This document shows, in pieces, positions 61,294-63,986 of a stretch of 64,000 nt of DNA; position 1 is the stretch's first letter; the number at the start of each line of letters is the position of its first letter. Position numbers and translations under genes: made by a program. Under the pieces are notes generated by a model. The model was not told the origin of the DNA, did no database searches, and worked only from the letters and a program-made list of their open reading frames with translations. Source of the stretch: Barnesiella viscericola DSM 18177 (GTDB taxonomy: Bacteria > Bacteroidota > Bacteroidia > Bacteroidales > Barnesiellaceae); contig NZ_CP007034.1 in the NCBI RefSeq assembly GCF_000512915.1, positions 1,240,001-1,304,000 on the forward strand, in the 5' to 3' direction.

Positions 61294-62574
61294 ATGGAAA
61301 TTTTCATTATAGTACTTCTTATTCTTTGTAACGGAGTACTCTCTATGTCCGAAATCGCCCTGGTTTCGGCCCGAAAAGTCAAACTCGAAAACAGCGCTAA
61401 AAAGGGGAGCAAAGCCGCACAGTCGGCCCTGAAACTCTCGCAAGACCCCGACCGATTCCTCTCTACCGTACAAATAGGCATCACCCTCATCGGGATTCTT
61501 ACCGGTCTCTATTCGGGCGACAAGCTGGCCGGCGACCTGGCCGGTGTGCTGGCCCAAAGTCCCGCACTGGAACCCTATGCCCTGAGCATATCGAAAGCCA
61601 TCATCGTCATCATCGTCACCTACCTCACCCTCATCATCGGCGAACTGGTGCCCAAGCGCATCGGTATGATAGCGGCCGAACAGGTGGCCAAGGTGGTATC
61701 GCGCCCCATGTCGTGGCTCTCGCTCATCGCCGCCCCCTTTGTGTGGATTCTTACCAAGAGCACGGCCGGGGTGTGTCAGTTTCTGGGACTCTCGTCGCAA
61801 AAGGAGGGCATTACCGAAGACGAAATCAAGGCCATCGTGCGCGAAGGGACCGAAGACGGCAGCGTGCAGGAGGTGGAACAGGATATTGTCGAGCGGGTAT
61901 TCAATCTGGGCGACCGCAACATCTCGTCAATCATGACCCACCGCAGCGACCTGGTATGCCTCGACGTACAGGACGACAACGCCACCCTCAAATCGAAAAT
62001 CATTCACGACCTGCACGCCGTCTATCCGCTGTGCGAAGACAGCCTCGACGACATCATCGGCATCGTGTCGCTGAAAGAGCTTTTTGCCAAAATCGACGAC
62101 CCCACATTCAACATCAGGGAGGTGGCCGAGACGCCCTATTTCCTGCCCGAGAACATGAGTGTCTATACCGCCATGGAGCGGCTACGCACCGAGAATCACC
62201 GCTACGGACTGGTGACCGACGAGTTTGGCAGCATCGAGGGCATCGTCACCCTCAGCGACGTGCTGGGCGCCCTGGTGGGTTCAGCCTCGGCCGGACCGTC
62301 GGCCGACATCATCACCCGCGACGACGGCTCGTGCCTCATCGACGGGCAATGCTCGTTCTACGACTTTCTCGACCACTACGACATGACCGACCGCTACCAG
62401 GAGTTCAACTACAACACGCTGAGCGGACTCATTCTCGAACTGCTGCAACACATTCCCACCGAGGGCGAAAAAGTGGACTGGCTCTGCTTCACCCTCGAAA
62501 TCGTCGACATGGACGGTGCCCGCATCGACAAGGTGCTGGTACACAAGCACGAGACCCCTCAGGAAGAGAACTAG
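61294..62574 (+). CDS. CNNM/CorC-type transporter-associated protein (hemolysin family)
   Basis: 426 aa. An N-terminal DUF21/CNNM membrane domain with three or four helices (about 1-150, with LSMSEIALVSARKVKLE and GELVPKRIGM) is followed by a CBS-pair (DIVERVFNLGDRNISSIMTHRSDL, YPLCEDSLDDIIGIV and GLVTDEFGSIEGIVTLSDVLGALVG). A C-terminal CorC_HlyC domain (YNTLSGLILELLQHIP) closes the protein. Relatives move or sense Mg2+; the haemolysin name is historical. The gene has its own unit and is not linked to neighbours. Confidence 0.92.
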   Translation: MEIFIIVLLILCNGVLSMSEIALVSARKVKLENSAKKGSKAAQSALKLSQDPDRFLSTVQIGITLIGILTGLYSGDKLAGDLAGVLAQSPALEPYALSISKAIIVIIVTYLTLIIGELVPKRIGMIAAEQVAKVVSRPMSWLSLIAAPFVWILTKSTAGVCQFLGLSSQKEGITEDEIKAIVREGTEDGSVQEVEQDIVERVFNLGDRNISSIMTHRSDLVCLDVQDDNATLKSKIIHDLHAVYPLCEDSLDDIIGIVSLKELFAKIDDPTFNIREVAETPYFLPENMSVYTAMERLRTENHRYGLVTDEFGSIEGIVTLSDVLGALVGSASAGPSADIITRDDGSCLIDGQCSFYDFLDHYDMTDRYQEFNYNTLSGLILELLQHIPTEGEKVDWLCFTLEIVDMDGARIDKVLVHKHETPQEEN

Positions 62575-62742
62575 CCCATCTCTCCCTGGTTTTACCCATA
62601 AGCACGGGGCAAACCTCCTGTTGTCAGGTAAGGTCTGCCCCGTACGCTTTCCACGGCTGCTTCCCCAACGACAGGAACCGCCGATGCCTTCCACGGGTGC
62701 CCCTCCCTTTCCACCCCACTTGCGATTGTGCAAAAAAGGTCT

Positions 62743-62750
62743 TACCTTTG
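62743..62750 (+). promoter_or_regulatory. yhhQ-queF promoter -7 box
   Basis: TACCTTTG is a full match. It predicts a start near 62757 and a leader of about 80 nt that holds the riboswitch. Confidence 0.65.
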
Positions 62751-62779
62751 CGCCCGAAAAAACAAATTGTATAACCAGC

Positions 62780-62801
62780 GAGGAGCTGCAACAGGCTCCT
62801 C
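62780..62801 (+). repeat. 7-bp hairpin upstream of the riboswitch
   Basis: GAGGAGC (62780-62786) pairs perfectly with 62795-62801 around an 8-nt loop (TGCAACAG) in the leader. It may shield or support the downstream pseudoknot; its role is unknown. Confidence 0.55.
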
Positions 62802-62834
62802 CCGTGTGCTTGAACACCACGTAAAAAACAAGGA
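62801..62834 (+). promoter_or_regulatory. preQ1-I-like riboswitch
   Basis: The leader folds as a compact pseudoknot. P1 is CGTG (62803-62806) with CACG (62818-62821). The P1 loop starts CTTG (62809-62812) and continues AACAC, which corresponds to the CTAGCTACAC of known preQ1-I aptamers. An A-rich tail (TAAAAAA) leads to CAAG (62829-62832), which can pair with CTTG as P2. CAAG overlaps the ribosome-binding AAGGA (62830-62834), so ligand binding should block translation. It lies directly before yhhQ and queF, both preQ1-pathway genes. The call rests on structure and context, not a search. Confidence 0.75.
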
Positions 62835-62837
62835 ATC

Positions 62838-63521
62838 ATGAATCGTACCGTATCTCTGCCCTTCCTCGTGATGGGCGTCGTATTCTGTGTGTGCCTCATC
62901 TGCTCCAACCTGCTCGAAGTGAAGATGGTTTCACTCGGAGGCATCACCGCAACCGCCGGACTCATTGTCTTTCCCATCTCCTACATCATCAACGACTGCA
63001 TCGCCGAGGTGTGGGGCTACCGCAAGGCACGGCTCATCATCTGGCTGGGCTTCCTCATGAATCTGCTGGCCGTTCTTTTTATCCAACTGGCCATTGTCCT
63101 GCCCTCGGCCCCGTTCTGGGAAGGGCAAAGCGCCTTCGAGGCCACCTTCTCCTCCACGCCCCGCATCTTGCTGGCCAGCTTCATCGCCTTTCTGGCCGGG
63201 TCGTTCCTCAACGCCTATGTGATGAGCAAGATGAAAATATCGAGCGGAGGCAAATACTTCTCGCTGCGGGCCATCGCCTCGACCATCGTGGGCGAGAGTG
63301 CCGACTCGCTGCTCTTCTTCCCCATCGCCTTCGGGGGCGTGGTACCGGTCAAGGAGCTCATCGTGCTCATCGTCACCCAGGCCTGCCTCAAAACAGCCTA
63401 CGAAATCATTATTCTGCCGGTTACCATTCGGGTGGTGCGACTGGTCAAGCGCATCGACGGCAGCGACGTCTACGACCGGCAGGTATCCTACAACATCTTC
63501 AAAATAAAAGAAATACAATAA
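62838..63521 (+). CDS. yhhQ: YhhQ/QueT-type queuosine precursor transporter (VUT family)
   Basis: 227 aa with about six membrane helices. The family stretches MVSLGGITATAGLIVFPISYIINDCIAEVWGYR and ISSGGKYFSLRAIASTIVGESADSLLFFPIAF (here given in two parts of at most 20 residues: MVSLGGITATAGLIVFPISY and SGGKYFSLRAIASTIVGES) are clear. YhhQ imports preQ0 and preQ1, precursors of the tRNA base queuosine. A preQ1-I-like riboswitch overlaps its ribosome-binding site, and queF starts 9 nt downstream, so uptake and reduction of precursors are controlled together. Confidence 0.95.
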   Translation: MNRTVSLPFLVMGVVFCVCLICSNLLEVKMVSLGGITATAGLIVFPISYIINDCIAEVWGYRKARLIIWLGFLMNLLAVLFIQLAIVLPSAPFWEGQSAFEATFSSTPRILLASFIAFLAGSFLNAYVMSKMKISSGGKYFSLRAIASTIVGESADSLLFFPIAFGGVVPVKELIVLIVTQACLKTAYEIIILPVTIRVVRLVKRIDGSDVYDRQVSYNIFKIKEIQ

Positions 63522-63530
63522 CTCATCAAT

Positions 63531-63986
63531 ATGGAATCGAAAGAACCTCAATTGACTTTACTGGGGCATAAGACCACCTATCGGCAGGACTATGCCCCCG
63601 AGGTGTTGGAGACCTTCACCAACAAACACCCCGAAAACGACTACTGGGTGCGCTTCAACTGCCCCGAGTTTACCAGCCTCTGCCCCATCACTGGCCAGCC
63701 CGACTTTGCCACCATACAAATCGACTACATTCCCGGCGAACGCATGGTCGAGAGCAAGAGCTTGAAGCTCTACCTGTTCAGTTTTCGCAACCACGGAGCC
63801 TTCCACGAAGACTGCGTGAACATCATCATGAAGGACCTCATCAAGCTCATGGAGCCCAAATACATCGAGGTGACCGGCTTTTTCACACCCCGCGGCGGCA
63901 TCAGCATCTACCCCTACTGCAACTACGGACGCCCCGGCACCGAGTATGAGGCGATGGCCCGCCAGCGGTTGCAGAGCCACCGGTAA
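63531..63986 (+). CDS. queF: QueF, NADPH-dependent 7-cyano-7-deazaguanine reductase
   Basis: 151 aa, the short (type I) QueF. The catalytic Cys51 ([13 protein letters not shown]) and Asp58 are present, with the NADPH-binding ESKSLKLYL and the substrate [13 protein letters not shown] region. It reduces preQ0 to preQ1, the step before transglycosylase (Tgt) exchange into tRNA. It follows yhhQ by 9 nt and shares the riboswitch-controlled transcript. A complete stop codon lies at 63984-63986. Confidence 0.96.

Follow-up and report, generated by a model that had tools for sequence, protein, structure and literature searches.

Which kind of RNA, if any, governs the queuosine genes yhhQ and queF near the end of the window (the whole 64-kb stretch of DNA analysed here)? 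The leader ahead of the two genes contains an ordered set of candidate elements, which are as follows:

62743..62750, + strand: putative Bacteroidetes -7 box TACCTTTG, read from the sequence
62780..62801, + strand: 5' hairpin P0, GAGGAGCT-GCAACA-GGCTCCTC, from sequence, RNA folding and enrichment in homologous leaders
62803..62832, + strand: complete aptamer-like H-type pseudoknot, 30 nt, from descriptor scans and covariation
62803..62806, + strand: P1 5' strand CGTG (P1 paired in 100% of alignment cells, two-sided changes in 3/4 pairs)
62809..62812, + strand: P2 5' strand CTTG, the anti-RBS (P2 paired in 93% of cells, two-sided changes in 3/4 pairs)
62813..62817, + strand: L2 AACAC (AC ahead of the P1 3' strand in 55/55 distinct elements)
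62818..62821, + strand: P1 3' strand CACG, from covariation
62822..62828, + strand: L3 TAAAAAA (A-rich L3 by eye and in the scan, where it is a criterion)
62829..62832, + strand: P2 3' strand CAAG, overlapping the AAGGA ribosome-binding site, from sequence
62838..63521, + strand: yhhQ, queuosine precursor transporter (TIGR00697, Pfam Vut_1)
63531..63986, + strand: queF, preQ1 synthase (TIGR03139)

The pseudoknot reads CGTG-TG-CTTG-AACAC-CACG-TAAAAAA-CAAG, the TG between the 5' strands of P1 and P2 being L1. A single nucleotide separates it from P0, the arms of which (GAGGAGCT, 62780-62787, and GGCTCCTC, 62794-62801) form seven Watson-Crick pairs and one U.G. The first-pass annotation had read a preQ1-I-like riboswitch from a promoter box, a hairpin, P1, P2, the loop AACAC and an A-rich tail, and every one of these parts is present where it had been placed. 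It had also let the 3' strand of P2 cover the AAGGA ribosome-binding site; the overlap holds, full cover does not, because P2 takes in CAAG and thus pairs only the AAG of that box. Five nucleotides separate the pseudoknot from the start codon of yhhQ (ATG at 62838), and queF follows yhhQ after 9 nt. Both downstream products had been named correctly: yhhQ scores 129.6 bits against TIGR00697 (cut-off 50.95) and queF 174.2 bits against TIGR03139 (QueF-II; cut-off 86.9). A terminator scan detected no terminator-like site between the -7 box and the yhhQ start codon, and terminator-based control was rejected, as the sole such site within 62560-63560 lies inside yhhQ and is at the level of shuffled sequence.

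Elsewhere in the window, a very stable hairpin (62600-62649, -29 kcal/mol, z -5.46) separates the upstream gene from the yhhQ promoter and may mark where the preceding transcript ends, and 41501-41569 matches FopS, an sRNA family of Bacteroidetes (RF04319; 79.4 bits against a cut-off of 56).

Taken from its single sequence, the window pseudoknot is only suggestive, since a slightly different descriptor, tolerating one P2 mismatch, has two further matches elsewhere in the 64-kb window; the descriptor of the pseudoknot itself is matched by 47 of 20000 dinucleotide shuffles of the 87-nt leader. Thermodynamic folding, restricted to nested folds and hence blind to pseudoknots, yields z -1.30 for 62751-62845 and z -2.74, mostly from the 5' hairpin, for 62780-62837, and does not alone single out the pseudoknot. 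In the best nested fold, the UG of L1 pairs with the CA of L2, a modelled pairing that could compete with the pseudoknot. The case for the latter rests on conservation, as read from aligned leaders.

Among 198 genomes of the order Bacteroidales, 69 contain relatives of yhhQ (71 matches). The element lies directly ahead of the gene in all of the 30 best loci when judged by eye, with an A-rich L3 in each (longer in L024 and L036), and the descriptor scan tolerating one P2 mismatch recovers 27 of them. From the remaining 41 matches 40 leaders were fetched, G191 being left out; these more distant leaders carry the element in seven cases (L037, L038, L040, L046-L049) and a degenerate form in one (L039), and 28 of the 40 (24-44% identity) lack the element. 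The other four (L050-L053), from four genomes of the order, bear a type-I-like element before a distant yhhQ; the Rfam PreQ1 model RF00522 reaches about 26 bits, below its cut-off, in L052 and L053 only, and in a search of 20 sources at E<=0.5 these two were its only matches.

Alignment A2 consists of 25 rows chosen from 38 elements. It omits near-copies (L008, L014, L017, L019, L026, L030 and others) and forms misplaced by MAFFT, namely the A.A subtype described below (L014, L016, L019, L023, L040, L046), the long-L3 pair (L024, L036) and the degenerate L039; it retains L037 and L038, whose P2 is shifted by one column and accounts for most of the unpaired P2 cells. In A2, 96.5% of stem cells are paired (P1 100%, P2 93%), and two-sided changes occur in six of the eight pairs, three in each stem, a count reached by 16 of 500 shuffles. 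The number of cells with two-sided changes (27 versus 5.4 in shuffles) and the covariation score (0.452 versus 0.153) were each reached by none of the 500, while further pair types show no excess (8 versus 8.8). Sliding the register by -3 to +3 columns keeps at best 60.5% of cells paired (at +2), with a score of 0.213. In the alignment of Bacteroidales yhhQ leaders to which the first-pass annotation had looked, the element thus recurs and both its stems covary.

Model R1, built from the 25 A2 leaders with P1 pairing only, has 46 matches in 40 of the 198 genomes of the order, of which 33 precede yhhQ, 9 queC and 4 neither; since the same genomes were searched, 25 of these are the building set and match by construction. 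The 21 matches outside that set comprise 8 before yhhQ, 9 before queC and the 4 near neither gene, whose E values (0.025-0.048) are at chance level. Within the same genome as the window, the yhhQ leader is the single R1 match; queC of that genome (C1:148126-148713, L280), followed by queD-like and queE-like frames, has none. Across the class, R1 finds matches in 9 of 295 genomes, six of them in the same order, including the genome of the window, and three outside it; in these three no queuosine gene accompanies the match, and the element is thus mainly one of the Bacteroidales. A phage origin was discarded after two pattern scans of viral contigs returned 0 matches.

The anatomy of the element was tabulated from 55 distinct copies found by a scan that demands a fully paired 4-bp P1, a floor G-C pair, an inner P2 G-C pair, an A-rich L3, and a C ahead of the P1 3' strand with A or T before it; in the counts that follow, these demanded features are not independent evidence. 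All 55 have AC ahead of the P1 3' strand, where the scan would allow AC or TC. The first P1 pair is C-G in 45, A-U in 9 and U.G in 1, the second G-C in 52 and A-U in 3, the third U-A in 46, A-U in 6 and G-C in 3, and the fourth, as the scan requires, G-C in 55/55. Length is 29-31 nt in 46 of the 55. Nearly all elements have UG or UA as L1, UU occurring solely in the in-gene copy L049. A minority form (10 loci) combines an L1 of UA with a P2 of six positions, the second of which is U-A in 7 and C-G in 3, the third C-G in 7 and U-A in 3, the fifth A.A in 10/10 and the sixth G-C in 10/10; we considered an L1 of 4 nt followed by a 4-bp P2 containing a mismatch, and a 2-nt L1 with a six-position P2 is the better reading.

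The Rfam model itself sees almost none of this. On the window element, RF00522 scores 11.7 bits against a gathering cut-off of 39, and across the 198 Bacteroidales genomes it has 0 matches at E<=0.001 under strict filters, in a search that did find B. subtilis among 14 control genomes. Six other places in the genome of the window outscore the element (13.4-17.2 bits, E<=10); they were dismissed as further switches and taken as chance, the four of the six loci scanned with Rfam holding only a cobalamin riboswitch and a tRNA. Of the two outcomes on which the first-pass annotation had staked its reading, a model match in homologous leaders failed to appear and covariation proved strong, which places the fault with the model and not with the element. 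Rfam-based annotation will overlook the element across an order of common gut bacteria.

A pattern scan of named genomes returned at least 120 stretches, which yield names rather than frequencies; among the matches listed (81 rows), yhhQ or queC comes next in 74 of the 74 with enough downstream sequence, many of them with queC or queF behind the first gene, the other seven having at most 90 nt downstream and no gene call. Over all loci, 187 of 205 scan candidates have yhhQ, queC or queD within 250 nt, and once the 18 without such a gene were dropped, 151 unique contexts remained (yhhQ 136, queC 14, queD 1). The gap from the end of P2 to the extrapolated yhhQ start is 3-6 nt in 115 of the 136 yhhQ cases, as expected for translation control. 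Before queC, the element lies 81-166 nt from the start codon in 6 of the 14 cases (L115, L117, L119, L156, L157, L174), a placement that simple occlusion of the ribosome-binding site would not explain.

The 7-bp hairpin that had been singled out as foreign to standard preQ1-I also recurs. A stem of at least 5 bp ending 0-3 nt before P1 is present in 70 of 124 non-redundant leaders, compared with 20-29 at five other offset ranges and a mean of 21.9 (maximum 36) in 100 rounds of shuffling; for stems of at least 6 bp the figures are 50 of 124, 5-12 and 7.5 (maximum 15). The sequence of P0 varies from leader to leader. In 125 leaders under a slightly different redundancy filter, P0 accompanies 39 of the 51 in which a -7 box, whose consensus we take to be TANNTTTG, ends 26-60 nt before P1, as against 10/17 at 16-25 nt, 2/15 at 15 nt or less and 4/9 beyond 60 nt; it is found in 15 of 33 leaders without TANNTTTG. 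This dependence on box distance suggests a tendency for transcripts to start at P1 or else to have the spare leader taken up by a hairpin.

In some genomes a copy of the element lies inside a gene. A second yhhQ (yhhQ2, TIGR00697) bears AAGG-TN-NNGG-ANAAC-CCTT-TAAAAAA-CCGA within its coding sequence, starting at the third codon, three bases past the start codon. This form occurs in 12 genomes, comprising 8/9 of one family, 3/81 of another and one of a third (loci L103 1498-2175, L269-L279 and L047-L049). Over these 12 genomes, seven of the eight codons for invariant residues in the element (K3, N7, P8, L9, K10, N11, R12) are identical at every base, and the eighth, V4, varies at the free L1 base only; in the rest of yhhQ2, the codon is invariant at 1 of 96 invariant-residue positions, with a mean of 2.96 codons. 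In the in-gene form, an RNA fold has clearly held codons fixed. Three copies (L271, L274, L276) have lost the outer P2 pair, and L277 and L278 have no ATG at the site where other copies could start downstream. Beside the L103 copy, the next gene matches a queuine lyase of solved structure (6p78, 7e-51); among the four in-gene loci examined, L269 and L277 have by eye a similar next frame with the same cysteine motif, and L279 has no such frame. Genomes that carry this form and have no QueF or QueC would tie queuine salvage by anaerobes to a regulator. The product of queuine lyase is preQ1, which makes preQ1 the metabolite common to the in-gene operons and to yhhQ-queF. QueF-II is over its cut-off in one of the 12 genomes (G079, which also has an ordinary yhhQ-queF) and QueC in none of them, genome completeness being 72 to 100%; weak matches below the cut-offs reach 29-39 bits for QueF and 25-36 bits for QueC in some.

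Outside the Bacteroidales, two Mailhella MAGs (Desulfovibrionaceae) carry a pair of aptamers 3 nt apart, differing in L2, ahead of yhhQ-queC-queF; the pair lies within a contig in L264 and at contig ends in L265 and L266, from the other MAG. In a yhhQ tree of the pattern-bearing rows among the matches listed and four fetched loci, the 11 Desulfovibrionaceae rows form two clades inside a group (98/91) shared with Bacteroidales rows and nested in larger Bacteroidales groups, so that transporter and switch were probably transferred together; the Desulfovibrionaceae rows require two changes on this tree, which has long branches of uncertain placement and is the sole check on misbinning of the Mailhella MAGs. 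Among the matches listed, the rows nearest to the window yhhQ in the tree are those of Barnesiella, which is thus the probable genus of the window.

That the leader is a structured, queuosine-linked RNA is beyond reasonable doubt. Covariation of the pseudoknot, its platform at the ribosome-binding site and its linkage to queuosine genes uphold the riboswitch proposal of the first-pass annotation, and a preQ1-I-type riboswitch acting on translation is very likely; ligand and switching are what we infer. We hold with high confidence that it is a class I preQ1 riboswitch, closest to type II, that would shut off translation of yhhQ-queF. C62817 is the positional equivalent of the cytosine that pairs with preQ1 in type II (PMC11625349, available in part, as are the other PMC sources cited here). 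With ample preQ1, the ligand would pair with this cytosine, stack between P1 and P2, and lock the pseudoknot; the locked P2 would hold CAAG 5 nt from the start codon, where the ribosome could not load. With preQ1 scarce, the weak P2 would open, and the transporter and preQ1 synthase would be made. P0 would fold first and shield the short P1 from the extra leader, and may stack on P1.

Three other explanations have to be weighed. Chance complementarity within an A-rich leader, to which the two other descriptor matches in the window lend some colour, is of negligible probability and is ruled out by the covarying stems and the gene linkage. The same pseudoknot might sense preQ0 or queuine instead, given that YhhQ is a reported carrier of both preQ0 and preQ1 (accessible parts of PMC11625349 and PMC5372724), that queC makes preQ0, and that the in-gene form adjoins queuine salvage; we nevertheless regard this as improbable, the pocket marks being those of preQ1-I type II. 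Moreover, with QueF absent over cut-off from 11/12 and QueC from 12/12 in-gene genomes, preQ0 would not be made there, which favours preQ1 over preQ0 and turns these genomes into a natural test of the ligand sensed. Queuine, for its part, is bulkier than preQ1 at the aminomethyl group. Small pseudoknots at start codons are also used by proteins, and a queuosine-pathway or other RNA-binding protein could repress translation from this one without a small ligand; the conserved loop bases (AC before P1, A-rich L3), however, are known preQ1-pocket bases, and we consider a protein site very improbable.

Accepting the preQ1 riboswitch, is it new? That the leaders already belong to the type II preQ1-I set of the 2014 survey (McCown and others), with only Rfam lagging behind, is a serious possibility that we put somewhat below even; it concerns novelty and agrees with the preQ1 riboswitch explanation. 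In its favour, type I is named in Bacteroidota and type II, with 521 sequences, is given a similar distribution in the available text of PMC11625349, and yhhQ is placed under various preQ1 riboswitch classes in that of PMC5372724. Against it, RF00522 finds 0/198 genomes of the order at E<=0.001, an Rfam-based map of B. thetaiotaomicron names three TPP riboswitches, with preQ1 and queuosine absent from the main text as available (PMC7366714), and queuosine riboswitches are called mostly limited to Firmicutes (PMC3766115, in part). The 2014 survey apart, no earlier description of the Bacteroidales element was found in the literature searched, as far as its accessible text goes. We give a slightly better chance, still short of even, to a fourth preQ1-I subtype, in which P1 is a minimal 4 bp directly adjoined by P0 and P2 comes either as 4 bp or as six positions including an invariant A.A; as a portable module it would have moved with yhhQ into Desulfovibrionaceae, doubled there to a tandem, and in queuine-salvaging species come to lie wholly in coding sequence, its bases serving as both codons and ligand pocket. 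The in-gene and tandem forms are the most unusual parts of this variant: preQ1-I is among the classes not found in tandem in Table 3 of a 2022 review (PMC9481103, in part), from which the Mailhella pair departs, and the phrase 'tandem preQ1' was not found in the accessible text of the literature searched.

Among known systems, preQ1-II and preQ1-III share ligand and gene function with the element and differ in their far larger aptamers and other topology (PMC11625349, in part); no Rfam match to either was reported for the window. Type I (C. antarcticum) is alike in overall plan, but its P1 3' strand is preceded by UC and it binds two preQ1 molecules (same source), whereas the Bacteroidales element has AC in 55/55; the UU that follows the P1 5' strand in types I and III is seen in L049 only. 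Type III (E. coli) resembles it in the AC at the specificity base, an AAGG-type ribosome site in P2 and its yhhQ genes, but its P1 is flanked by UU and it possesses a pyrimidine-rich stem-loop, features not seen here (same source). AC ahead of the P1 3' strand is the mark of type II; of this type, the ceiling of the Bsu aptamer is a plain C-G pair, and the Tte aptamer has canonical P2 steps at only two of four positions (same source). The Bacteroidales L1, UG or UA, offers no cytosine such as that of the Tte C7-G11-C30 triple, and, given the Bsu ceiling, a ceiling triple with an L1 cytosine is not general in type II. With type II (B. subtilis, T. tengcongensis; RF00522) the element shares the H-type pseudoknot, AC before the P1 3' strand, the G-C floor pair, the A-rich L3, the P2 3' strand at the ribosome-binding site and the queuosine genes downstream; it differs in its 4-bp P1, its length of mostly 29-31 nt, its frequent P0 and its scores below the Rfam cut-off. 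The Tte aptamer is about 33 nt long, and the Bacteroidales element, with preQ1 as its predicted ligand, offers a minimal natural aptamer for structural work.
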